Part shown: in pieces, positions 22,555 through 37,400 of the stretch | Layout: each line of letters opens with the position of its first letter | How positions within the stretch are numbered: position 1 is the first letter of the stretch | Assembly: GCA_027023255.1 (NCBI GenBank) | Contig: JALVVU010000109.1 | Location: 1 to 37,818 of the forward strand | DNA: 37,818 nt | DNA from: Desulfurococcales archaeon | Lineage (GTDB): Archaea > Thermoproteota > Thermoprotei_A > Sulfolobales > NBVN01 | Direction: 5' to 3' | Translations under genes and position numbers: made by a program | Notes under the pieces: model-generated | Told to the model about the DNA's origin: nothing | Seen by the model: only the letters and a program-made list of their open reading frames with translations | Database searches by the model: none

Positions 22555-22592
22555 ATCACCCAACATCTTTAAGCCGCATCAAGGATACTTTC

Positions 22593-22635
22593 GTGTTATT
22601 GCACGTAATCCTTATTAATTTCTGTGCTATAACAC
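22593..22635 (+). promoter_or_regulatory. 12-bp inverted repeat flanking a TATA box (Trp-rich operon promoter)
   Basis: GTGTTATTGCAC (22593-22604) and GTGCTATAACAC (22624-22635) are inverted copies of each other with one mismatch in 12. The 19-base spacer holds the only TATA-like element, TTATTAAT (22611-22618), so both arms would be bound exactly next to TBP and the predicted start site near 22640. This looks like a strong repressor or dual operator for the Trp-rich gene pair. Confidence 0.6.
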
Positions 22636-22649
22636 AAAATGGTGGGAAC

Positions 22650-22940
22650 ATGCCCGGATGGGGATGGAGAGGAGGATGGAGAGGACCCTGGCCCGGGAAC
22701 GGCCCCTTCAGCTACCTACCGCCATGGCTAAGGCCTGGATGGGTATTCGGCAGAGGCGCGTGCTGGTGGCTCTTCGGGTACCCGTGGGGCGCTAGGTTGT
22801 GGTACTGGAGATACTGGGGATGGCCTGGATGGGGCTGGGGATGGAGATGGCTATGGAGCTACCACACCGCTAACCCGGTAACCTACACGTACTACCCGCC
22901 AGCGTGGTGGGTAACGTACTGGGGAGTCCCACCTTACTGA
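22650..22940 (+). CDS. Tryptophan-rich small protein (22% Trp)
   Basis: From the ATG at 22650, which has GGTGGG just upstream, the protein is 96 aa with 21 tryptophans, plus many Gly, Pro, Arg and Tyr (MPGWGWRGGWRGPWPG, GRGACWWLFG, RYWGWPGWGWGWRW). It has no classical membrane helix or signal peptide and a single cysteine. The track start at 22593 lies in the promoter and is rejected. The MPG..GRGxC flavour recalls small glycine-rich DUF5320-type proteins of anaerobes, but the tryptophan content is far outside that. It precedes a second Trp/Tyr/Pro-rich gene by 39 bases. Function unknown. Confidence 0.75.
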   Translation: MPGWGWRGGWRGPWPGNGPFSYLPPWLRPGWVFGRGACWWLFGYPWGARLWYWRYWGWPGWGWGWRWLWSYHTANPVTYTYYPPAWWVTYWGVPPY

Positions 22941-22965
22941 ACACAGTACAAAACAAACAGAAATC

Positions 22966-22975
22966 AGGAGGTGAT
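22966..22975 (+). promoter_or_regulatory. Near-perfect Shine-Dalgarno of the second Trp-rich gene
   Basis: AGGAGGTGAT matches the complete archaeal anti-Shine-Dalgarno complement and lies four bases before the ATG at 22980. It decides that ATG over the GTG at 22971 and suggests very strong translation. Confidence 0.8.
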
Positions 22976-22979
22976 AATC

Positions 22980-23393
22980 ATGAGTTACGGCTACGGTTAC
23001 GGATGGGGATGGAGACGCTGGTGGAGATGGAGGGCATGGCAGTATGGCCCACCCTACGGCCCACCAGGGCCTTGGTGGGCTGAGAGACCTCCGGAGTCCG
23101 AGAACGTAGAGAAGGAAACCCAAAGCAGGGAGGACGTAACGCAGAGAGGCTACCGGTACGGCCCGCCATACCCGCCACCCTACTATCCGCCACCATGGTG
23201 GTCAGCGCCGCCAGCACCCTACCCATACCCCTACGGACCTCCAGCACCTCAGAGCCCTGAGGAAGAGCTAGCGATGCTGGAAGAGTACAAGAAGGAGCTT
23301 GAGGCTAGCTTAAAGGATCTGCAGGACGAGCTGAGAAGCGTTGAGGAACGCATTGAGGAGTTAAAGAGGCTCATTAAGGAGAAGGGAGGTTGA
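22980..23393 (+). CDS. Trp/Tyr/Pro-rich protein with C-terminal coiled coil (DUF5320-like)
   Basis: The 137-aa protein starts with MSYGYGYGWGWRRWWRWRAW, continues with Pro/Tyr/Gly repeats (YGPPYGPPGPWW, YGPPYPPPYYPPPWW) and a short charged spacer, and ends in a clear heptad-like coiled coil (EELAMLEEYKKELEASLKDL...RIEELKRLIKEKGG). A Gly/Pro-rich head and such a coiled-coil tail is the layout of DUF5320-type proteins. Ten tryptophans are present. The coiled coil suggests oligomers that display the aromatic heads. It forms an operon with the preceding Trp-rich gene. Function unknown. Confidence 0.75.
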   Translation: MSYGYGYGWGWRRWWRWRAWQYGPPYGPPGPWWAERPPESENVEKETQSREDVTQRGYRYGPPYPPPYYPPPWWSAPPAPYPYPYGPPAPQSPEEELAMLEEYKKELEASLKDLQDELRSVEERIEELKRLIKEKGG

Positions 23394-26538: not shown

Positions 26539-26817
26539 GTGGAGGGTTTTGTGAGCCTAGCGCTCTCCTGCCTGATCCCCCTGTACATCGTCGCAATAGT
26601 CCTGTACGCTGTTAGGGTGTTAAAGGGCCCTACGGTGTCGGATAGGGTTTTGGCTGTGGACGCCTTGGGCTTTGACCTGGCGGCGTTCCTTACGATTCTT
26701 TCCGTGCTGTTTAGAGCACCCATAATGGTGACGACCGCGTTAGTACTGGCGCTCTGGATCTACGCCCTAGACATCTACGTAGCAAAGTACCTGGAGTCTA
26801 AGGAGATGGGTGATTGA
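26539..26817 (+). CDS. mrpF: Mrp antiporter subunit F / hydrogenase MbhB-like
   Basis: The 92-aa protein has three membrane helices and the MrpF signature VLKGPTVSDRVLAVDALG, with the conserved Asp in the second helix region. MrpF belongs to the sodium/proton-translocating part of Mrp antiporters and Mrp-linked hydrogenases (MbhB in Pyrococcus). It starts with GTG (26539; a later GTG at 26551 is possible) and is the first gene of a tightly packed seven-gene Mrp run. No mrpE lies in front of it; mrpE is found later in the run. Confidence 0.92.
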   Translation: MEGFVSLALSCLIPLYIVAIVLYAVRVLKGPTVSDRVLAVDALGFDLAAFLTILSVLFRAPIMVTTALVLALWIYALDIYVAKYLESKEMGD

Positions 26818-26818
26818 A

Positions 26819-27196
26819 ATGTTATGGGAGACCGTGTGCTCGGTGGCCGGCCTCATACTCGTGGCGATAGGTGCTTTCTGTGACATAGCGGCAGCCATAG
26901 GGATTAACAGGTTCCCGAATTTCTTTGTTAGGCTCCATGCCGCCACCGTTGGGGCCATAGGTGGTGCTGTGGTACCGGCTTTCGGTGCCGGCCTAATAGC
27001 TCTAGGGTCGCCCGAGTTAGGGAATTACAGGTTCTTCGTTGCCGGCGTTTCCTTCACTACAGGATTAATGATAATGATTTTAGGGCAGGCAGGCGCTCAC
27101 GCATTAGCTAGAGCCACGCTGAAGGCTAAGGCAGCACCTCTTGAGCCATGCGTACATAACGCGTTAAGGAGGAGGGAAGAGGTGAGGGGTGAATGA
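26819..27196 (+). CDS. mrpG: Mrp antiporter subunit G / MbhC-like
   Basis: The 125-aa protein has three membrane helices and the MrpG block IGINRFPNFFVRLHAATVGAIGG. The ATG at 26819 has GGTGAT four bases upstream, so I prefer it over the GTG at 26810; the stop of mrpF overlaps this ribosome-binding region. It partners with MrpF in the membrane. The C-terminal tail is soluble and charged (NALRRREEVRGE). Confidence 0.92.
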   Translation: MLWETVCSVAGLILVAIGAFCDIAAAIGINRFPNFFVRLHAATVGAIGGAVVPAFGAGLIALGSPELGNYRFFVAGVSFTTGLMIMILGQAGAHALARATLKAKAAPLEPCVHNALRRREEVRGE

Positions 27197-27447
27197 TTGA
27201 CCTTATTGCCGCACTCTTGATGGCTGTGGCTGCGGTAACGTCCATAGTGTTCACGTACTTAGCTGTGGTTGAGAAGAACTTAATTCAGGCGGTGGTGTTC
27301 TCGGCTGTTCAGAGCACCATGTACGCACTGATCTACTTCCTCCTAATGGCCCCCGACATCGTGTTGGTCTACCTGCCCGTGGGTGTCGGTATATACCCCG
27401 CCATAATTTTACTCTTAATTAAGAAAACTGATAAGGTGGATGAGTAG
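27193..27447 (+). CDS. DUF4040 / MbhD-like subunit (MrpA C-terminal segment)
   Basis: This 84-aa protein has three membrane helices and the pattern LIQAVVFSAVQSTMYALIYFLLMAPDIVLVYLPVGVGIYPAII, which corresponds to MbhD of Mrp-linked hydrogenases and to a C-terminal part of bacterial MrpA. The ATG overlaps the mrpG stop (ATGA). Together with the next gene it supplies the MrpA C-terminal pieces as separate subunits. Confidence 0.88.
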   Translation: MIDLIAALLMAVAAVTSIVFTYLAVVEKNLIQAVVFSAVQSTMYALIYFLLMAPDIVLVYLPVGVGIYPAIILLLIKKTDKVDE

Positions 27448-27449
27448 CC

Positions 27450-28262
27450 ATGAAGGTCACAGATCTTGTCGTTGCGGCCTCGATCGTCGCGCTTGCCCTC
27501 CTGCTTAGTTACGCGATGTTTTTGGGCGGAATAGGGCCGGTACCCGTGAGGTCTGAGTTGAGGACCTTAGCCTTGAACTATATCCTACTAACATACAATC
27601 CCGCGAAGATCATTTACAGCGCTTTAGCTCCCGAAGGGGTCACGGCTATCGTGTGGGACTACAGAGGGCTTGACACGTACTTCGAGACAGCCGTTATGTT
27701 CCTAGCGATAATTTCAGTCGTCGCACTAACACACGGATGTAAGGTGAGGATAGGGCTAGGTAAGGGAGGGATGTCATTAATAGTTAAGACCACCACACGC
27801 ATACTAATGCCACTCATAGTGCTGGCCGGCGTCTCAATAACCATGCACGGATGGCTGACCCCCGGCGGAGGCTTCCAGGGCGGCGCGACAATAGCCGTAG
27901 CTACGGTCCTAGCCCTCGTCACATACTCCATTGACACCCTGGCGAAGCACGGCATACGTAAGAAAATACTCCTAGCGATGAGGAGCACGGGCCTCATAGG
28001 CATAGCGCTAACCGCTGTCGCCCTACTCATTATTGGTCTTGCCGTTGGCGTTAATGCGTACATCTTCCAGAACCAGGAACGCATGGGTTCACCACTAGCG
28101 TTCCCAGCATACTTCAGCGGAACACCTACCGGAGGATCGTTACTTTTCTATAACTTGTTTGAGGCGTTTGCTGTGAGTGCCGGTCTCTCGTTAGCGATAA
28201 TAGTGACGTCTCTCCGGGAGGAGGAGGTTAAGGAGACCTTGAGGGGTGAGGGTGTTGAGTGA
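27450..28262 (+). CDS. mrpB: MbhE-MrpB fusion subunit (MbhE/MbhF-like)
   Basis: The 270-aa protein joins two subunits. Residues about 1-95 match MbhE (GVTAIVWDYRGLDTYFETAVMFLAIISV). Residues about 108-265 match MrpB/MbhF, with RILMPLIVLAGVSITMHG and LTPGGGFQGGA, the hallmark of MrpB. In Pyrococcus these are separate genes. It has about seven membrane helices. The Shine-Dalgarno is AAGGTGGA, two bases after the preceding stop codon region, and the run continues without gaps into mrpC. Confidence 0.9.
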   Translation: MKVTDLVVAASIVALALLLSYAMFLGGIGPVPVRSELRTLALNYILLTYNPAKIIYSALAPEGVTAIVWDYRGLDTYFETAVMFLAIISVVALTHGCKVRIGLGKGGMSLIVKTTTRILMPLIVLAGVSITMHGWLTPGGGFQGGATIAVATVLALVTYSIDTLAKHGIRKKILLAMRSTGLIGIALTAVALLIIGLAVGVNAYIFQNQERMGSPLAFPAYFSGTPTGGSLLFYNLFEAFAVSAGLSLAIIVTSLREEEVKETLRGEGVE

Positions 28263-28692
28263 GTTAATCATTCCGTACCTACTGACAGTGGTCTTCGTTT
28301 CCTTCGTGATTAACCTAGTAATAGCTTTGTACGGTATCTTCGCCAGACCGACGCTCGTGAAGAAGATCATAGCGCTGACGATATTCTCTGATAGCCTCAA
28401 TAGCTTAGCCATATTCGTGGGTTACAGGGTAGTTTCAGGGAGAGTCCCGGCACCGCCCGTCGTCGTGAATTACACTAGCCCCCAAGGACCCGCTCAGCTG
28501 GCTAAGGTCACGGTAGATCCATTACCTCAGGCCCTAGTCCTCACAGCCATAGTGATAGGCCTCGCGGTCACGCTCTTCATGGTTAAGGTGACGATGCAGG
28601 TTCATAGGATCTATGGAACGACTAGTGTCCGCAAGCTTGAGCGTATCGAGCACGGCAATAAGGGAGAGGAGGACGAAGGGGTGGTTGAGTGA
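28255..28692 (+). CDS. mrpC: Mrp antiporter subunit C / NuoK-like
   Basis: The 145-aa protein has three helices of the NuoK/MrpC type (NLVIALYGIFARPTLVKKIIALTIFSDSLNSLAIFVGYR) and the conserved DPLPQALVLTAIVIGLAVTLFMV block. The start is uncertain: GTG 28246, GTG 28252 or TTG 28255 are all in frame; GGGTGA at 28244-28249 gives the best spacing to the TTG. It overlaps the end of mrpB. The C-terminal tail is acidic and polar. Confidence 0.9.
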   Translation: MSELIIPYLLTVVFVSFVINLVIALYGIFARPTLVKKIIALTIFSDSLNSLAIFVGYRVVSGRVPAPPVVVNYTSPQGPAQLAKVTVDPLPQALVLTAIVIGLAVTLFMVKVTMQVHRIYGTTSVRKLERIEHGNKGEEDEGVVE

Positions 28693-29195
28693 TGAAGGCG
28701 TTAACGTATGTAGGAGCTTTCCTGTTCTTCCTAGCCTTTTACCTGCTATTCTCCGGCTCCGTAAGCTTGTATGACATCACGGTTGGCTGTGTGGCTTCCG
28801 CAATACTTACGGTGCTTTACGCCAGGATAATGTATGGTAGGGATCTGAAGCCCTCTGACATCGCTAAGGTCGGGCGCCTGATCAAGTACTTCTTCTGGTA
28901 CATGTTTGTGGCGGAGCCTAAGGCACATGCAGACGTGATTAAGAGGGCTTTAAGCCCTTCCATGCCCATAAACCCAGGCATAGTTGAGGTTCCCTTCGAC
29001 GTTAAGAGTGACTTCTCGATAACCCTCATAGCAGGGTCAATAACCAACACTCCCGGCACCGTGACTGTTGAGGTCGATAAGGAGAGGAAGGTACTCTACG
29101 TACACTGGATCGACGTTAAGGTTACGGAGCCCGAAGCCGTGCGTGAGCACGTCTCACGTGACTTCGAGAAACACGCGTCACGGATTTGGGGGTGA
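28692..29195 (+). CDS. mrpE: Mrp antiporter subunit E / MbhA-like
   Basis: The 167-aa protein has two N-terminal membrane helices followed by the soluble MrpE domain with FDVKSDFSITLIAGSITNTPGTVTVEV and YVHWIDV, which are typical of MrpE/MbhA. The ATG at 28692 overlaps the mrpC stop (TGATG) and has GGGGTGG six bases upstream; a GTG at 28689 is the alternative. In many clusters mrpE comes first; here it sits between C and D. Confidence 0.9.
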   Translation: MKALTYVGAFLFFLAFYLLFSGSVSLYDITVGCVASAILTVLYARIMYGRDLKPSDIAKVGRLIKYFFWYMFVAEPKAHADVIKRALSPSMPINPGIVEVPFDVKSDFSITLIAGSITNTPGTVTVEVDKERKVLYVHWIDVKVTEPEAVREHVSRDFEKHASRIWG

Positions 29196-29201
29196 TGAGG
29201 T

Positions 29202-30746
29202 TTGGACGTGAACGTGTTTGTAGGCATCCTCCCGCTTTACCTGATCGCTGCCGCGTTCGCCTTACCTGTCTTCACGCTCTTCATCAAGGATAGGCGGTTC
29301 TTCGAGGGGTACGGCATCGTAGCTGCGGGCATAGCATTAGTGATTTCCGCTAAGGTCTTCATGGATGTGACTAGGGAAGGCATACAGAAGTACTACTTCG
29401 GCGGGTTCCCACCACCTCTCGGCATCGCGTACGAGGTTGACAAGATGGGGGCGTTACTGGGGCTTGTGGCGTCCCTCATAGTCTTCATCACCACAGTCTA
29501 CAGCGCGTGGTTCATGAGGGTTAAGGGTGTTGAGTGGTACTACGCGCTACTCCTAGGCATAGAGGCGGGCTCCGTTGGCGTGCTCTACACGGGCGACTTC
29601 TTCAACATCTTCGTCATGCTTGAGGTGCTATCCATAAGCGCGTACGGGCTCGTGTCATTCTACAGGTGGAGGGGTAAGTCCCTCAGCGCCTCCATAGAGT
29701 ACGCCATAGTGGGTTCAGTAGCGACTGGTCTCTACTTCCTCGCGGTGGTCTTCCTTTACGGGGCATTCGGCACGCTTAACTTAGCGGACCTAACCGCGAA
29801 GGCCATGAGTGACGGTGGGTACGTTAACCAGTGGAGCGGGGGGTTATTCGGCAACGCTGTCGTTGCTTCCGCGGTGGCGTTAGCGTTAACGATGTGGACA
29901 ATAACCTTTAAGTCAGCGATCTTCCCGAACTACTTCTGGTTGCCCGACGTCGTGCCTGAGGCACCCACACCAGTCTCAGCAATATTCGTTGCGGTTGCTG
30001 AGGTTCTGGGTGTGTACCTCTTCGTCAGGTTCATGTACACTGTCTTCTCACCACAGAGCCTGCTAAGCGGGGAGTTGAGGACGTACTTCCTAGTGTTCCT
30101 CCACATACTCGGCATAGTTTCCGCATTCATAGGTGCGTTAGTCCTCAACATTCAGCGCGACGCTAAGAAGTTCATAGCGTACAGCACCGTCAACCAGATG
30201 GGCTTCGTCTTCATGGGATTAACGCTAGGCACTAAGGAAGGAGTAGTGGCTGGACTATACCACCTACTCTCAAATTCCTTCGGCGAAGCCCTACTCTTCT
30301 ACTGCGTCGGCGTAGCGATATGGCTTAAGGGCAGGTCATTAACCGATGCGGGGGTGTTAAGACGTAATCCTGTCATCGCGGCGGGTTTAGTAGTAGGTCT
30401 CCTGAACCTCTTCGGATTACCTCCCTTCATGGGGTTCTTCAGCAAGTACATGCTGTTCAAGGCATGCCTTGATAGGGGATACATCGTGAGCGCCGTGCTA
30501 ATCCTAGTCATAACGGGCATATCGTTGATAGGGTACGCAAGGTTCCTACGCGGACTACTCTCCGGACCTTCGGAGGCTGTGCGGAGCAGGAACCTCATAG
30601 TGCCGCTAATTATTGTGGCGTTCATTACCGCAGTGATAGTGTTGCTGGGTGTGGGCTTCGAGTACGTTATACACTACCTTAACGGCGTCGTTAAGATGGC
30701 ATTCGATTCAGGAACATACGCCATGAATGGGGTGTATCCTCCTTGA
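29202..30746 (+). CDS. mrpD: Mrp antiporter subunit D / MbhH-like (NuoL/M/N family)
   Basis: The 514-aa protein has about fourteen helices of the antiporter-like Nuo family. The helix-5 glutamate (VMLEVLSISAYGLVSF) and the helix-7 lysine (MWTITFKSAIFPNYFWLP) are present, as are EAPTPVSAIF and VNQMGFVFMGL. Where most MrpD/NuoM/NuoN proteins have a helix-8 lysine in (V/T)K-x-GVY, this protein reads AEVLGVY, without the lysine and with a glutamate one residue earlier. TTG start, with GGTGATGAGG just upstream. Last gene of the Mrp unit; 90 bases and a TATA box follow. Confidence 0.92.
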   Translation: MDVNVFVGILPLYLIAAAFALPVFTLFIKDRRFFEGYGIVAAGIALVISAKVFMDVTREGIQKYYFGGFPPPLGIAYEVDKMGALLGLVASLIVFITTVYSAWFMRVKGVEWYYALLLGIEAGSVGVLYTGDFFNIFVMLEVLSISAYGLVSFYRWRGKSLSASIEYAIVGSVATGLYFLAVVFLYGAFGTLNLADLTAKAMSDGGYVNQWSGGLFGNAVVASAVALALTMWTITFKSAIFPNYFWLPDVVPEAPTPVSAIFVAVAEVLGVYLFVRFMYTVFSPQSLLSGELRTYFLVFLHILGIVSAFIGALVLNIQRDAKKFIAYSTVNQMGFVFMGLTLGTKEGVVAGLYHLLSNSFGEALLFYCVGVAIWLKGRSLTDAGVLRRNPVIAAGLVVGLLNLFGLPPFMGFFSKYMLFKACLDRGYIVSAVLILVITGISLIGYARFLRGLLSGPSEAVRSRNLIVPLIIVAFITAVIVLLGVGFEYVIHYLNGVVKMAFDSGTYAMNGVYPP

Positions 30747-30808
30747 TGATGTTAAAGGAAAAACATTCAATCAAGAATTTTAACATTCTTTACGAGCAAC
30801 CAACAAAA

Positions 30809-30815
30809 TTTTTAA
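30809..30815 (+). promoter_or_regulatory. TATA box for the GltD-HycB-hydrogenase unit
   Basis: TTTTTAA preceded by an A-rich stretch lies about 25 bases before the GTG at 30837, predicting a leaderless or near-leaderless transcript. It makes the hydrogenase unit separately regulated from the Mrp unit, which ends 63 bases before it. Confidence 0.55.
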
Positions 30816-30836
30816 CAGAGTACCAATAAAGACAAG

Positions 30837-31904
30837 GTGAGTAGAAGATTGAAGTTCGCATTTCTTTGTAAGGAGAAGGGCTCCGAAGGCCGCGGTAAAG
30901 TAGCGATAGTGGGCGCGGGCCCTGCAGGCCTTGCAGCGGCCGGATACCTTGTGTGCAAGGGTTATGATGTGGAGGTATTCGATAAGTTACCCCTACCCGG
31001 AGGCTTAATGACCTTCGCAATACCATCCTACAGGATCAGGCTCACGACCGTGCTGGAGGGCGTTGAGGATCTCAAGAAGAACTTCGGCGTCCAGTTCCAT
31101 CTATCCACTAAGGTCGTGTGCGGTAAAAGACATGACGAGGGCGACGACTTCGCAAAGAATGAGGTACAGCTGAGCAATCTAGTCAGCGAATTTGATGCTG
31201 TACTGATAGCCACCGGAACCTGGCAGTCTAGGAAGATGAAGATCCCGGGTGAGGACGCTGAGGGTGTTGAGACCGCGCTGGAGTATCTCTTCAAGGTTAG
31301 GGCCCATGAGTACGGTTTAATGCCCGAACCCCCCGTACCGAGGAGGGTCATCGTTGTTGGCGGTGGCCTCTCAGCCGTGGATGCGGCGGAGGTGTCGCTT
31401 GAAAGGGGATCTGAGGTTGTTTACCTGATGTACAGGAGGAGTATCCAGCAGGCACCTGCGGGAGTGTATGAGATAAAGAGGTTGATTAGGAAGGGAGTGA
31501 AGTGGATGGAGCTAGCTAACCCGACGAGGATAATTACCGAGAACGGTAAGGTCAAGGCTGTTGAGGCCATAAGGATGAAGTTGGGTGAGCCTGACGCTAG
31601 CGGCAGGCCAAGACCTGAGCCAATACCTGGAAGCGAGTTCGTTGTCGAGACTGATGCGGTTATTGAGGCGATAGGTGAGTACTCAACCCCACCGATAGGC
31701 GAGGGATGCAGTGAACTAGGCATTGAGGTTGACAGGAAGGGAAGGATTGTGGTCGATGAGAACTTTAGGACGAGTCACCCGAAGGTATTCGCCGCAGGCG
31801 ACGTGGTCACGGGTCCCAGCAAGATAGGGGATGCTTCACTCCTCGGTCTCAGGGCTGCCAAAGCTTTACACCTCGCCCTGAGTAAGGGCTCAACTCGTTT
31901 GTGA
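30837..31904 (+). CDS. GltD-like FAD/NAD(P) oxidoreductase, lacking the N-terminal FeS domain
   Basis: The 355-aa flavoprotein has the FAD motif VAIVGAGPAGLAAAGYL at about residue 22, then LPGGLMTFAIPSYR, the NAD(P) motif VIVVGGGLSAVDAAEVSLERG at about 170 with a YRRS loop that suggests NADP(H), and the C-terminal AGDVVTGPSKIGDASLLGLRAAKAL. It belongs with the small subunit of glutamate synthase, NfnB and related electron-transfer proteins, but those are about 460-480 aa with a two-cluster N-terminal domain that is missing here. The next gene, 16 bases later, encodes a four-cluster ferredoxin that could supply it. It opens the hydrogenase unit, so an electron exchange between NAD(P)H and the hydrogenase is inferred. 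Confidence 0.88.
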   Translation: MSRRLKFAFLCKEKGSEGRGKVAIVGAGPAGLAAAGYLVCKGYDVEVFDKLPLPGGLMTFAIPSYRIRLTTVLEGVEDLKKNFGVQFHLSTKVVCGKRHDEGDDFAKNEVQLSNLVSEFDAVLIATGTWQSRKMKIPGEDAEGVETALEYLFKVRAHEYGLMPEPPVPRRVIVVGGGLSAVDAAEVSLERGSEVVYLMYRRSIQQAPAGVYEIKRLIRKGVKWMELANPTRIITENGKVKAVEAIRMKLGEPDASGRPRPEPIPGSEFVVETDAVIEAIGEYSTPPIGEGCSELGIEVDRKGRIVVDENFRTSHPKVFAAGDVVTGPSKIGDASLLGLRAAKALHLALSKGSTRL

Positions 31905-31920
31905 GGGAGGTGAGCAAGGA

Positions 31921-32457
31921 ATGTCCGTACAGTCAGAGGGTAAGGCCTCAAGGAAGGCCGGTCTTCAGGAGTTAAGACTAATAGACTACGAAAGGTGCAT
32001 GGGGTGCGGCACCTGCGAAGCTGTCTGTGGCTTCATTCACGACGACAGGCCCTACATAAAACTGTACGAGTTATACCCCGGCTTGGTGAGGCCAATATCC
32101 TGCTTCCACTGCAGTAAGGCACCCTGCATTGAGGCGTGCCCGACAGGAGCCATGAGCAGGGATCCTGAGACAGGCGCTGTTTACGTCGAAACAACGCGGT
32201 GCATCGGCTGTATGGCATGCCTTTACGCCTGCCCCTTCGGCATACCTGAGTTCTCCAGGGTCTCTAACACCGCTACCAAGTGCGACCTGTGTCGCAAGCT
32301 AATGCATGAAGGCTTAAGACCGGCATGCGCGGCGATGTGCCCTGCGGAGGCGATAGTGGTCGCGCCGCCTGAGGAGGTAGGTAAGGAGGTTAGGGTGAGG
32401 GTCCTTAAGAAGATAGTTTTACCTAAGCTCGAGGCGCTTGAGGAGAGCCGTAAGTAG
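31921..32457 (+). CDS. HycB-like polyferredoxin (four [4Fe-4S] clusters)
   Basis: The 178-aa protein contains the cysteine pattern of the HycB/DmsB family: CMGCGTCEAVC, CFHCSKAPCIEACP, CIGCMACLYACP and CDLCRKLMHEG...CAAMCP, enough for four [4Fe-4S] clusters. In formate hydrogenlyase, HycB links formate dehydrogenase to the hydrogenase. ATG start with the strong GGAGGTGA ribosome-binding site. It lies between the GltD-like gene and the NuoL-like gene and should pass electrons between them and the hydrogenase small subunit. No formate dehydrogenase catalytic gene is in this window. Confidence 0.92.
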   Translation: MSVQSEGKASRKAGLQELRLIDYERCMGCGTCEAVCGFIHDDRPYIKLYELYPGLVRPISCFHCSKAPCIEACPTGAMSRDPETGAVYVETTRCIGCMACLYACPFGIPEFSRVSNTATKCDLCRKLMHEGLRPACAAMCPAEAIVVAPPEEVGKEVRVRVLKKIVLPKLEALEESRK

Positions 32458-32483
32458 CTCCTTAAGCGATGAGGAGAACCGTC

Positions 32484-34022
32484 ATGAATGCACCGTTAAC
32501 GTATGACACGCTTAGGTACGTAGTAATAGCGGTCTCAGCCGCCACCGTGCTAACCGGATCGTACATAAGTTGGAGACATAAGACTGCGGGAGCGTCCCTA
32601 CGCTCGGCAGGGTACTTACTGTTGGCGTCCCTGCCCCTCATATCTACATACCTTTTTGGAGCTCCCTCCCCTATCCAGCTTGTTTCGTACCTCATGATCT
32701 TCATAGCTTCAGCCATATCGCTGATAGTCTCACTGTACACGTCCTCGTACGTCAAGAAGTACGGCACTAATTCCCTCCAGCTATTGATCGACGCGTTCGC
32801 TCTCTCCATAATAGGTGTGTTCGTGGCTAACTACCTACTTGAGTTCGTGCTGTTCTGGTTGCTTGCGGAGGCCATAGGTTTCTTCGTAATAGTGTATGAT
32901 GCCCTAATAGGCAGGGAGACTAGGGCTTGGCGGGCTGGCCTGAGGTACTTAGCCATCTCCATGATCCCCGCTGATGTCGGCTTAATGACTCTGCTGGCCC
33001 TAGCCGGCCTAGGCAGGGCAGTTACCGTACCGATGTTTAACCTCGGCCTCGACCTAAGCAACCAGGTCATAGTGACGCTGGTTGCGTTAGGCTTCATGGC
33101 TAAGGCAGCGATAGCTCCCCTCCACTTCTGGTTGGCTGACGCGCACTCCATAGCGCCGGCGCCGGGTTCCGCCTTGCTCAGCGGTGTCATGGTTAAGATG
33201 GGTGTTTATGCGTTGCTGGCTCTCCCGTACATGGCTAACGTGCTGTCCAGCACCTACTGGATCGTGCTTGCCGTCTTCGGCGCCATCACAACTATCTACG
33301 GTGGTCTGCAGGCGCTAGTGCAGAGTGACATAAAGAGGATACTCGCGTACAGCACCGTATCCCACACCAGCGAGATGGCTATACTCATAGGCCTCTTCCT
33401 GCTCTCAGGGAATGACGTGTTCTTCGCCGCCGTCATAGCGTACATGGTTGCCCACGCTCTCTACAAGGCCGGCCTCTTCATGGACTCCGGCTTCATAGAG
33501 TTCCACCTCCACACGAGGGACATTAATAAGCTAGGATTCGTGTCCAGGATAGCGCCGAGCGAAACCCTAGCGGCGTTACTGGCGGTAATGTCGTTGATAG
33601 GCATCCCGCCCACCATGGGCTTCCTCGCGAAGCTAATCACGCTCCTTGCCCTAGCAGACAACATAATGTTTGGCGTGGTCTACATTGGCGCACTGGCAGT
33701 AATCCTTGCCGGCATGGTCCTAGCGTTGGGTTACGGTGTGAGGTACTTACTCGTTCACTTAGGTTCCGTGGAGAACCCGGAGACCGAGAAACCGGGGAGA
33801 ATCGAGCACGTTATGAGTGAGGCTGTGATGGCTGCTGCGGCCCTAGGCTTGATACTGCCGCTGGGGCTAGCCCCCATAATAGTGAGTAGGTTAGCGATGC
33901 CCGTGCTGTACTTAGTGCTCGGCGTAACGCTAATGATCGTGCTAGTGATCTTAGCAGCATTAAATGATATACTTAAGAGGGGAAGGAGACATACTCCTTG
34001 GTTAGGAGGGGCGGCACCGTGA
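32484..34022 (+). CDS. HycC/NuoL-like antiporter subunit of the membrane-bound hydrogenase
   Basis: The 512-aa protein has about fourteen helices. It shows the helix-5 glutamate (FWLLAEAIGFFVIVYD), helix-7 lysine (FMAKAAIAPLHFWLADAH), helix-8 lysine (SGVMVKMGVYALL), the YSTVSHTSEMAILIG block and the helix-12 lysine region (AHALYKAGLFMDSG), so the ion-translocating charges are complete. The ATG at 32484 has GAGGAG seven bases upstream and is preferred over 32469. It lacks a clear C-terminal lateral helix, which the next small gene may provide. It is a second antiporter-like subunit besides mrpD. Confidence 0.92.
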   Translation: MNAPLTYDTLRYVVIAVSAATVLTGSYISWRHKTAGASLRSAGYLLLASLPLISTYLFGAPSPIQLVSYLMIFIASAISLIVSLYTSSYVKKYGTNSLQLLIDAFALSIIGVFVANYLLEFVLFWLLAEAIGFFVIVYDALIGRETRAWRAGLRYLAISMIPADVGLMTLLALAGLGRAVTVPMFNLGLDLSNQVIVTLVALGFMAKAAIAPLHFWLADAHSIAPAPGSALLSGVMVKMGVYALLALPYMANVLSSTYWIVLAVFGAITTIYGGLQALVQSDIKRILAYSTVSHTSEMAILIGLFLLSGNDVFFAAVIAYMVAHALYKAGLFMDSGFIEFHLHTRDINKLGFVSRIAPSETLAALLAVMSLIGIPPTMGFLAKLITLLALADNIMFGVVYIGALAVILAGMVLALGYGVRYLLVHLGSVENPETEKPGRIEHVMSEAVMAAAALGLILPLGLAPIIVSRLAMPVLYLVLGVTLMIVLVILAALNDILKRGRRHTPWLGGAAP

Positions 34023-34366
34023 GTCATGTCCGTGCCAACTTACTTTACAGGTTATCCAGACTCGTTAACAGGATGCTAGCTAGGACAGCCCCTCTCTCTA
34101 GGTCTCTTAGGAAAGCCCTCCTAGAGTTAGCACAGGAGGATAGATCCAAGGGAGGCAAGGGTTCCTCACTCCTTGAGAAAGTCGTGAACCTTCCCGGTAG
34201 GTGGGAAGGTCTCGAGTACTACGTTGTTAACGCATTACGGGGCACGGCCGGAGGGATCACGTCCTTCCAGAGCTCCATTGAGAAGTCATTCGCCCTCGCC
34301 TCCTTGCTTGCGGGCGTCCTAACCGTGGTTAGCTTAATGGTTTTGGTGATCGTGCATGTATCTTGA
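34019..34366 (+). CDS. Small membrane subunit of the hydrogenase (NuoL lateral-helix-like fragment)
   Basis: From the GTG at 34019, which overlaps the preceding stop, the protein is 115 aa: a basic N-terminal half (LSRLVNRMLARTAPLSRSLRKALLEL), a central amphipathic stretch (WEGLEYYVVNALRGTAGGITSFQSSIEKS) and one C-terminal membrane helix. This resembles the lateral helix and final transmembrane helix at the C-terminus of NuoL, which in Mrp-linked hydrogenases can be a separate small subunit (MbhI). The assignment is by position and pattern only. It overlaps the NuoH-like gene by eleven bases. Confidence 0.65.
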   Translation: MSHVRANLLYRLSRLVNRMLARTAPLSRSLRKALLELAQEDRSKGGKGSSLLEKVVNLPGRWEGLEYYVVNALRGTAGGITSFQSSIEKSFALASLLAGVLTVVSLMVLVIVHVS

Positions 34367-35213
34367 AATACTCTTGGCAACCGCCCTAACGGTTGCCGGG
34401 GTGGTGCTCGCCCCAATATATGATTCGCTAGAGCGGAAAATTAAGGCTAGACTGCACTCTAGGGTCGGCCCACCAATACTTCAGACGTGGTACGACGTGC
34501 TTAAGCTGCTGGCGAAGGAGTTAGTAATACCTGAGGGAGGGTACTTCACGGCCGCTGTAGTGCTTACGGAGCTGTTCCTCTCGATAGCTCTGCTAGTGTC
34601 CGTGAGTTTCCTGCTATTCTTCCAGTCGCTAACGATGTACGTCCTCGTCGCTGTCTTCATATCGGCGCTAAGTGCCGCCACACTTGTGAAGTCCGTGACG
34701 CAGAACAACCTATTCTCAATCATAGGTGGCTTCCGGGAATACTCAGTAGTGCTTAGTGCGGAGCCATTCCTCATACTGCTCGTACTGTTGATAGGGGCTA
34801 GGGGCGTGACTGACTTAAAGAGCTTGATTGGGTTAGCACCCGTGGTGCTAACGACGTACGTCATGACCGCACGAATACCCTTCGACATAGCTGAGGCTGA
34901 ACCCGAGATAGCTTCAGGAATAATGATAGAGTTATCAGGACCTCTCCTAGCCGCTAATGAGTTATCCCTCCTAACACGAAGGTACGTCATGGCGGCATTA
35001 CCAGCGTACCTCTTCCTCCCATGGCTCATTGCGAACCCCTTACTAAGGGTCGGGTTAGGGCTCGCCTTAACACTACTGACTTGGGTTATCTTCGCCGTTG
35101 TGGCCGTCCTGCTGGGCAGGACTAGGGCTGCCGTAATGCTTAAGGGAACCACGGTCGCCGCTCTCACGTTAACCTTACTATTCATAATTGTGGAGAGTGT
35201 TCCTTATGGGTGA
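34356..35213 (+). CDS. HycD/NuoH-like membrane subunit of the hydrogenase
   Basis: The 285-aa protein has about eight helices and the NuoH family blocks SRVGPPILQTWYDVLKLLAKE near the N-terminus and ARIPFDIAEAEPEIASGIMIELSG in the middle, which form the contact with the peripheral arm and the charged path to the membrane. It overlaps its neighbours on both sides (eleven bases upstream, eight downstream). It anchors the hydrogenase large/small subunits and couples electron transfer to ion movement. Confidence 0.94.
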   Translation: MYLEILLATALTVAGVVLAPIYDSLERKIKARLHSRVGPPILQTWYDVLKLLAKELVIPEGGYFTAAVVLTELFLSIALLVSVSFLLFFQSLTMYVLVAVFISALSAATLVKSVTQNNLFSIIGGFREYSVVLSAEPFLILLVLLIGARGVTDLKSLIGLAPVVLTTYVMTARIPFDIAEAEPEIASGIMIELSGPLLAANELSLLTRRYVMAALPAYLFLPWLIANPLLRVGLGLALTLLTWVIFAVVAVLLGRTRAAVMLKGTTVAALTLTLLFIIVESVPYG

Positions 35214-36903
35214 GCAGGGCAGGTACCTGCCGGAATGTCCTGAAATGAGTGAGGTAGTACGTAAGCTTACTGAGGAGTATGGCGGGCACGTGATTTTCTC
35301 TCGGGAGTCTGAGGTCTACATTGAGGTGCCGCGGCATGAGCTGAAGGATGTCGCTAAGTACCTCTACAGCTCGGGGGCGTTCTTAAAGACCTGCGCGGCC
35401 GTTGATGAGCGCCCACTCAACCGTTCCTTCGCGCTGTACCACATATTCGGCATGGATTCGAAGGGTTACGATGTGATAGTGAAGGTGAGCGCCCCGGAGG
35501 ATGACGCCTGGGTGCCCAGCACAGTCGACGTGGTTCCGGCAGCGGATTGGTGCGAGCTTGAAGCACGCGACATGGTGGGAATCGAGCTCAAAGGTAGGAG
35601 GCTAGTTCGCAGGTTAGTCCTTCCTGAGGACTGGCCTGAAGACATACACCCGCTCAGGAAGGAAGTTCCCCACGATTTCAGGCCACCATCAGTTAAGGCG
35701 GAATCCGAGTTCCGCCCGCCTGAGAGGGGCATACCTATAGGGCCGTATCACCCAGTGCTTCACGAACCCGAGTACTTCGAACTCCTCGTTGAGGGGGAGA
35801 CCGTAGTCGACGTTTACTACAGAGGCTTCCACGTCCACAGGGGCATTGAGAAGCTAGGTGAGTCCCCGAGGTTCACGTATCAGAAGATACCGTTCCTAGC
35901 TGAGAGGATCTGCGGCATATGCGGGTTCGTGCACTCAACCTGCGCCATAATGGCTATGGAGAAAGCCGCCGGAATCAGGCCGCCGGAGAGGGCTGAGTTC
36001 ATTAGGACGATCGTGCTTGAGCTTGAGAGGATCCACAGTCACCTGCTCTGGGTCGGTGTCGCGGCACACGTCCTAGGTTACGACGCGGGCTTCATGCACA
36101 CATGGAGGGTCAGGGAACCAGTAATGATTCTCTCCGAACTCATAACGGGCAGCAGGAAGACGTACGGCTTAAACCTAGTGGGTGGCGTTAGGAGAGACAT
36201 AGACAAGGACAAAATGGAGAAGATCATGAAGACTCTAGACAGGGTTGAGAAGGAGTTTAAGGAGCTAGCTAACCTCCTCGTCTCCGTACCCCAGATACGT
36301 AGGAGGGCGCAGGGCACTGGCGTGCTAACCAGGTCTGAGGCTAGGGCTTTAAGCGTCGTCGGGCCGGTAGCGAGGGCTTCAGGCCTTTACCGTGATGTCA
36401 GGAAGGACTACCCATACTTAGCGTATAAGGAGGCATCCTTCAAGGTCCCGCTCTACACCGAGGGCGATAACCTAGCTAGGGTGCTTGTTAGGGTGGAGGA
36501 GGTCTTCGAGAGCATCAGCATAATAAAGCAGTTACTGGATAAGCTACCTGGAGGCCCTATAATGCATGAGAAGTGCTCAGCAATAATACCTGTGGACGAG
36601 CTAATACCTCCCGGGAAGTACGCCGTAGCTGCTATCGAGGCGCCGCGTGGTGAGGACGTCCACTTCCTAATGACTGGGGAGGGCAGGCCTTACAGGTGGA
36701 GGGTTAGGGCCCCCACCTACCAGAACATACCTGCGTTGAGGCCCATGCTCAGAGGCGATCCCTTAGCCGACGCACCATTAACGATCGCCAGCATAGATCC
36801 TTGTTTCTCGTGCACTGACAGGGCCCTCGTGATCGACGTGAGGACCGGGAGGGCCCGGACGATTAAGCTATGGGATGGAGGTGTCGGTACGTGTCGATTA
36901 TGA
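35206..36903 (+). CDS. HycE-like NuoC/NuoD fusion: group 4 [NiFe] hydrogenase large subunit
   Basis: The 565-aa protein starts with a NuoC-like domain (to about residue 160; WCELEARDMVGIELKGRRLVRR, then LPEDWPEDIHPLRKEV) and continues with the NuoD/hydrogenase large-subunit domain. Both pairs of NiFe-site cysteines are intact: ERICGICGFVHSTC (C236 and C239) and DPCFSCTDR near the C-terminus. So this is a real [NiFe] hydrogenase rather than a Nuo-type subunit. About 25 residues follow the second pair. The ATG at 35206 is preferred over GTG 35188. NuoCD fusion is the HycE arrangement; in Pyrococcus MBH the two are separate. Confidence 0.95.
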   Translation: MGEQGRYLPECPEMSEVVRKLTEEYGGHVIFSRESEVYIEVPRHELKDVAKYLYSSGAFLKTCAAVDERPLNRSFALYHIFGMDSKGYDVIVKVSAPEDDAWVPSTVDVVPAADWCELEARDMVGIELKGRRLVRRLVLPEDWPEDIHPLRKEVPHDFRPPSVKAESEFRPPERGIPIGPYHPVLHEPEYFELLVEGETVVDVYYRGFHVHRGIEKLGESPRFTYQKIPFLAERICGICGFVHSTCAIMAMEKAAGIRPPERAEFIRTIVLELERIHSHLLWVGVAAHVLGYDAGFMHTWRVREPVMILSELITGSRKTYGLNLVGGVRRDIDKDKMEKIMKTLDRVEKEFKELANLLVSVPQIRRRAQGTGVLTRSEARALSVVGPVARASGLYRDVRKDYPYLAYKEASFKVPLYTEGDNLARVLVRVEEVFESISIIKQLLDKLPGGPIMHEKCSAIIPVDELIPPGKYAVAAIEAPRGEDVHFLMTGEGRPYRWRVRAPTYQNIPALRPMLRGDPLADAPLTIASIDPCFSCTDRALVIDVRTGRARTIKLWDGGVGTCRL

Positions 36904-37400
36904 AGCTACTCAGCATAGCGGCTAAGGCTAAGGTAGTCACTAGGAGGTACCCATTCGAACCCCCCGTAGTTACTGAGGGGTTCAGGGGTAAGATTGAGGT
37001 CGACCCTAAGCTCTGCTGGGGCTGTGGCGTATGCACTAGGATATGCCCGCCCAACGCCTTGACGCTTAAGAAGCGGGAGGACGGCACCCTAGTGCTTTCG
37101 TACTTCATGGGTAGGTGCATATTCTGCGGCATGTGCGCTGAGGTATGCCCGCGGGGAGCGATAACTGTTACGAAGGAGTTCGAGCTCGCGTCACTGACTG
37201 CGGAAGACTTGGTTAGGGACGTTAAGCACGACGTGGTTAGGTGCAGGATTTGCGGGCGCGTCATAGGCCCTACCGTGGAGATAAGGGAAGCGACCAAGAG
37301 CGTGGGCGGTGCAGAAGCCAAGTACTACGACCTCTGCCCTGAGTGCCGTAAGCTCGTGGTTGCCCGCGGAATAATGACTAAGGTGGGTGTTAGGCCTTGA
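36891..37400 (+). CDS. HycF/NuoI-like ferredoxin subunit of the hydrogenase
   Basis: The protein carries two [4Fe-4S] motifs, CWGCGVCTRICPPNA and CIFCGMCAEVCPRGA, in the NuoI manner. A C-terminal extension has two more CxxC pairs (CRICGR, CPECRK) spaced about 36 residues apart, which could bind zinc. The GTG at 36891 has GGAGGTG seven bases upstream; ATG 36900 (which overlaps the previous stop as ATGA) and ATG 36870 are alternatives. It carries electrons between the polyferredoxin and the small subunit. Confidence 0.93.
   Translation: MSIMKLLSIAAKAKVVTRRYPFEPPVVTEGFRGKIEVDPKLCWGCGVCTRICPPNALTLKKREDGTLVLSYFMGRCIFCGMCAEVCPRGAITVTKEFELASLTAEDLVRDVKHDVVRCRICGRVIGPTVEIREATKSVGGAEAKYYDLCPECRKLVVARGIMTKVGVRP

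Follow-up and report, generated by a model that had tools for sequence, protein, structure and literature searches.

IssA (SipA, PF2025) of Pyrococcus furiosus is a thioferrate storage protein with an IPR003731/PF02579 domain (PMC5524996). Its tail of 70 residues is Pro-rich and then cationic, aromatic and Gly-rich; it lacks structure, shows conservation chiefly of its overall Trp/Gly/Arg composition, holds the only Cys of the protein, and is the proposed binder of anionic thioferrate (PMC5524996). SipB (PF2026 / TON_0916), considered here as a possible known member of the ORF1 family, has been described as an 'ATPase C-terminus' (PMC4463584), and we claim no relationship. In MrpORP an Mrp NTPase is joined to a PF02579-type domain, and the protein binds Fe-S clusters (PMC6345978).

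IssA is the best known answer to the storage of iron and sulfide without ferritin chemistry in strict anaerobes. The stretch of archaeal DNA analyzed here (37,818 nucleotides, referred to as the window) carries two small tryptophan-rich genes, ORF1 and ORF2, and we give about an even chance to the proposal that they are the detached two-gene tail of IssA/NifX-type (PF02579) iron-sulfur proteins of anaerobic archaea.

Composition and conservation of the gene pair

ORF1 (22650..22940, + strand, with its ATG at 22650 and its stop at 22940) codes for a Trp/Gly/Pro/Arg protein of 96 aa containing 21 W, 7 R, one conserved Cys (Cys38) and zero D, E or K, with a charge of +6.6 and aromatic and Gly contents of 35% and 18%. 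ORF2 (22980..23393, + strand, ATG at 22980 and stop at 23393) codes for 137 aa, including 10 W, 24 P and 14 Y, arranged as an aromatic/Arg head, a Pro/Tyr-rich linker and a C-terminal coil. The tryptophan counts of the initial annotation (21 in 96 residues for the first protein, 10 together with Tyr/Gly/Pro repeats for the second) are thus confirmed, and both ORFs are correctly placed to the base. Relative to a Trp background of 1.59%, taken from 17 large ORFs of the window, the binomial P of the excess is 4e-18 for ORF1 and 7e-5 for ORF2. AlphaFold2 returns a disordered and uninformative model for ORF1 (pLDDT 47), and for ORF2 a single confident helix at residues 93-136 (pLDDT ~90), the remainder being mostly disordered.

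A scan of the gene starts in the window places a perfect Shine-Dalgarno sequence, AGGAGGTGAT, ahead of ORF2 (22965..22974, + strand), where a near-perfect one had been noted before; among the remaining real gene starts of the window, just one, at 31921, has a comparable site. High output of ORF2 may be intended, as was suggested earlier, with this ribosome site as the sole basis for the suggestion.

The pair and its gene order are preserved in four species of the window's genus. Comparisons with congeners (three species) give dN/dS values of 0.13-0.38 (ORF1) and 0.06-0.08 (ORF2), similar to those of the upstream MgtE gene (0.10-0.14). Both ORFs are therefore real genes under purifying selection. 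A search of related genomes, proposed as a check in the initial annotation, finds homologues of ORF1 in 54 of 118 relatives (57 by profile) and of ORF2 in 35 of 118, and the objection that neither protein is conserved fails.

Farther downstream, positions 26539-37400 of the window encode Mrp-antiporter-like subunits, ferredoxins, NuoH/NuoL-like subunits and a hydrogenase-like large subunit with CGIC and CFSC motifs retained; to judge from the ORF translations, this cluster resembles a membrane-bound [NiFe] hydrogenase complex.

The ORF1 family, its neighbors and the coil

ORF1 belongs to a family spread across hyperthermophilic archaea, with members in many archaeal phyla, and recognized by the motif PWPGxGPFSYLPPWxRPGWxxGRGxCWW, or in its wider form PWPGxGP[FW][SA][YHF]LPPWxRPGWxxGRGxCWW, preceded by a Gly/Trp/Arg-rich start. 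In ORF1 the signature is GPWPGNGPFSYLPPWLRPGWVFGRGACWW (residues 12-40; 22683..22769, + strand), and an alignment of 62 sequences has P13, P15, G16, G18, P19, F20, S21, L23, P24, P25, W26, R28 and P29 invariant. Part of this invariance is selected in the 80 loci collected by peptide patterns, because one of the patterns, PFSYLPPW, is itself part of the signature; relatives found by translated search, without PFSYLPPW, keep the signature with small changes (F/W/Y, S/A, Y/H/F). The signature is not represented by any Pfam or NCBIfam model, and searches of PDB and of full texts also returned nothing, aside from matches to DUF5320 (PF17253) borne by the C-terminal coil in 6 of the 62 members. The family is widespread, so far unnamed, and absent from Pfam and NCBIfam. 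Two variants in genus g17 (L054 and L058) carry an additional Gln/Pro-rich segment ahead of the signature and have no coil or partner; their genomes also lack DUF134.

Among 130 scanned neighbors the three most frequent families are DUF5320 (35), PF02579 Nitro_FeMo-Co (20) and DUF134 (15). Of 78 loci, 31 have a PF02579 gene less than 1 kb from the signature gene, 35 have one less than 2 kb away and none has one at 4-8 kb; the corresponding numbers for DUF134 are 28, 33 and 0, and one or the other is within 2 kb in 54 of the 78. These range over Thermoproteota, Bathyarchaeota, Hecatellales, Hadesarchaea, Hodarchaeaceae, Asgard, Thermococcus, Methanoliparum and one WOR-3 bacterium. The linkage of the family to PF02579 and DUF134 genes is well supported, with the caveat that the loci are not phylogenetically independent and that, for many, the peptide patterns used to collect them cover part of the signature. 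In many loci Mrp/NBP35-type ATPases are found no more than six genes away from the signature gene. DtxR-type regulators recur as well, and so do FeoB-like GTPases, the latter in some neighborhoods; these names were assigned by sequence inspection and, for Mrp, partly by Pfam.

Fusions are also present. PF02579, a GMGRG-type linker and DUF5320 are joined in a single chain in L113 and L084, with each domain over its cut-off, and similar PF02579-linker-coil chains are seen by inspection in L107, L125, L126, L128 and L131. Other PF02579 neighbors have G/R/W-rich tails, for example MSYGYGRGRGRGWGRRGWGRQRGWG. In three Thermococcus loci (L081, L100 and L142) an IssA-like gene immediately precedes the signature gene; in L081 and L100 it is followed straight away by tandem signature genes, and its tail has a Cys-containing stretch (CIHYKNGKCEFW...CPFF) and PWRWW at the end. 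A CDF cation-efflux transporter with a C-terminal PF02579 domain is present in L138 (9198-10463, by Pfam), and a seemingly similar one in the window's own genome (G000:C138:25097-25396).

ORF2 scores 25.7 bits (E 2.7e-5) against DUF5320, under the Pfam cut-off of 27, with residues 77-120 aligned to profile positions 62-98; the same Pfam scan gives no DUF5320 match for ORF1. The feature expected of members, a C-terminal coil after a Pro-rich stretch, is seen in ORF2 as the helix at residues 93-136 (23256..23387, + strand), in which 10 of 13 heptad a/d positions are hydrophobic. By its profile match ORF2 is a sub-threshold DUF5320 relative, which supports the likeness to DUF5320 noted in the initial annotation. 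Coils among relatives vary in length by whole heptads.

A coil of this kind is part of the signature protein itself in 18 of 98 distinct family members (14 by automatic rule and four, L063, L129, L143 and L144, by eye), and none of the 18 lies within 1.3 kb of a partner gene that encodes a coil. Such a gene is present within 1.3 kb of 56 of the 80 members with no coil of their own (Fisher 1.6e-6, automatic counts), and 34 of 36 partner genes are DUF5320-like at E<=0.1 (best 5.5e-17). The coil is thus supplied in cis or in trans but never both, and ORF1 plus ORF2 accordingly represents the split form of one architecture. Several loci have a third small aromatic-rich gene with a short helix (e.g. 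...FYAWTAFWMQWIYMTYYIESFKLMLDSWRKFMES...) directly after the signature gene; it sits between the signature and coil genes in L102 (5140-5418), L134 (8129-8428), L009, L052 and L068.

A shared operator and its candidate regulator

The palindrome GTGC-N4-GCAC precedes 45 of 97 family genes, mostly 25-60 bp ahead, compared with 0.2 in shuffles. It is also found at 17 of 810 control ORFs, the majority of which either are DUF134 or PF02579 genes or are served by the same divergent promoter. The variants GTGA-N4-TCAC and GAAA-N4-TTTC occur in other clades. The window holds two GTGC-N4-GCAC sites in all, both upstream of ORF1: GTGTTATTGCAC (22593..22604, + strand), a 0-mismatch match to GTGYTATWRCAC that is identical in four congeners, and its inverse copy GTGCTATAACAC (22624..22635, + strand), located by operator pattern matches and congener comparison. 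Between them is a TATA-box-like stretch, CCTTATTAATTT (22610..22621, + strand), again identical in the four congeners and a putative promoter. Scans of the window for sigma-70 promoters and terminators gave nothing of note, which is expected given that the host is an archaeon. The 60 bp before ORF1 (22590-22649) are near-identical across the four species, with one difference; this is unusually strong conservation for non-coding DNA, the dS of the MgtE gene being ~0.6 in the most distant species.

The best candidate regulator is DUF134, because it both co-occurs with the signature gene and adjoins it. Across 118 relatives both are present in 48, one without the other in 8 and 9, and neither in 53 (p = 2e-15, a value inflated by shared descent). 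At the genus level the two are shared in 30 genera, of 31 and 33, and the two genes lie less than 1 kb apart in 34 genomes from 22 genera. DUF134 is a predicted DNA-binding protein, and it probably controls the genes with GTGC-N4-GCAC sites. The family is thus inherited along with IssA/NifX-type iron-sulfur proteins and apparently also induced with them.

The window's own genome contains four PF02579 genes (C9, C27, C138 and C174) and one DUF134 gene (G000:C138:3195-3461). Throughout the genus the pair adjoins neither, these genes being on other contigs, and the link in this genus therefore rests on homology and the operator. Mapping of the regulon in this genome was by pattern searches, in which the operator is hardly enriched genome-wide (78 sites vs 69 in the control for the loose pattern, 5 vs 3 for the tight one). 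The five tight sites comprise the two in the window, one 44 bp upstream of the PF02579 gene at C9, and two inside reading frames (one ABC permease-like, the other another large ORF); given the location of these last two, no further members of the regulon are claimed.

Possible roles and comparison with known systems

The likeness to the IssA tail, the fusions, the coil in cis or in trans and the shared operator make it the simplest reading that ORF1 and ORF2 are the tail and oligomerization parts of an IssA/NifX-type iron-sulfur module, supplied in trans. In such a system the ORF2 coil would form ORF2 oligomers, and the aromatic and Pro segments of both proteins would build a joint low-complexity scaffold whose Arg residues, with Cys, could bind anionic iron-sulfur species, either thioferrate-like chains or clusters formed on PF02579 proteins. 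The scaffold would buffer iron and sulfide and pass clusters to Mrp/NBP35-type carriers, and a palindrome-binding regulator, most likely DUF134, would switch the genes according to iron/sulfide status. The shared operator and neighborhood do not by themselves show iron-sulfur binding; we infer this, along with physical assembly, the role of DUF134 and the signal sensed, and the pair may help to hold iron and sulfur in cells living without oxygen. A fuller version, in which signature and coil proteins form an intracellular scaffold or condensate on which PF02579 lays thioferrate-like iron sulfide under a DUF134 switch, making a non-ferritin store of iron and sulfide in trans, is put forward only tentatively. 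If true, many anaerobic archaea would possess such stores, which would not depend on the fused tail of IssA.

Of the four options offered in the initial annotation, a storage or scaffold material tied to a metal (iron-sulfur) cofactor system is favored by neighborhood, fusions and operators. A surface coat is unsupported, since the proteins that recur beside the family are cofactor proteins of the cytosol.

A somewhat doubtful but still serious rival has the pair acting without any mineral, as a chaperone-like adaptor in Fe-S or cofactor assembly that links PF02579 proteins, Mrp/NBP35 carriers and client enzymes (hydrogenase, AOR), with the signature as a docking peptide. The signature is conserved far beyond the needs of a purely electrostatic mineral-binding tail, and its rigidity suggests a specific partner besides electrostatics. 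The recurrence of Mrp/NBP35-type ATPases near the signature gene and the combination of Mrp NTPase and PF02579-type domains in the cluster-binding MrpORP (PMC6345978) also agree with an adaptor. However, 69 of the 80 members lacking a coil are free of acidic residues, which together with a net charge of +7 fits a polyanion binder, and IssA-like tails share the same chemistry.

It is unlikely that the pair is instead a membrane-interface or remodeling scaffold, with ORF1 on the cytoplasmic face of the membrane and oligomerized by ORF2, perhaps near FeoB, CDF or the adjacent MgtE. The interfacial transfer energy of ORF1, calculated from composition on the Wimley-White scale, is favorable at ~-40 kcal/mol, and MgtE directly upstream in the genus, the CDF-PF02579 fusions and FeoB-like GTPases in some neighborhoods point the same way, but the MgtE adjacency is confined to the window's genus as far as seen and the recurrent partners are soluble. 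Less likely again is a nucleic-acid-binding, RGG-like low-complexity pair co-regulated with iron-sulfur genes; its Arg/Gly/aromatic composition and zero acidic residues would suit this, but Pfam and NCBIfam scans find no known RNA- or DNA-binding domain, and it is PF02579 proteins that take part in the conserved cis/trans exchange. Spurious or drifting low-complexity ORFs arising from TGG-rich DNA, or chance, would account for the extreme composition and the unstructured ORF1 (pLDDT 47), but can be dismissed with near certainty, being refuted by the congener dN/dS and opposed by cross-phylum conservation and by the conserved operator and Shine-Dalgarno.

This analysis brings together, as one regulon centered on PF02579 proteins, a very widespread unnamed family rich in Trp, the domains DUF5320 and DUF134, and a conserved operator. 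It offers testable functions for these two uncharacterized domains, and a DNA site amenable to simple binding assays. DUF5320, whose function is unknown, shares with ORF2 the C-terminal coil behind a Pro-rich linker, although ORF2 matches only its C-terminal part, below the cut-off, and has a Trp/Arg-rich head. DUF134 (PF02001, COG1342) has the same operators and neighborhood and co-occurs with the signature gene, but is a candidate regulator and not a homologue of ORF1 or ORF2. MrpORP and the Mrp-NBP35 carriers are similar in tying a PF02579-type domain to Fe-S transfer in anaerobes, and Mrp-like ATPases recur near the ORF1 family, but these are enzyme-like carriers without a low-complexity scaffold. 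The composition and charge of ORF1, its disorder and its lone Cys all agree with the IssA tail. In contrast to IssA, ORF1 and ORF2 are separate genes without the PF02579 / IPR003731 domain, which a Pfam scan matches in neither, and the description of the P. furiosus tail mentions neither the rigid signature nor the coil that they possess. Lacking that domain, neither is an IssA, and by this analogy the pair would be better described as working with and like the IssA tail.
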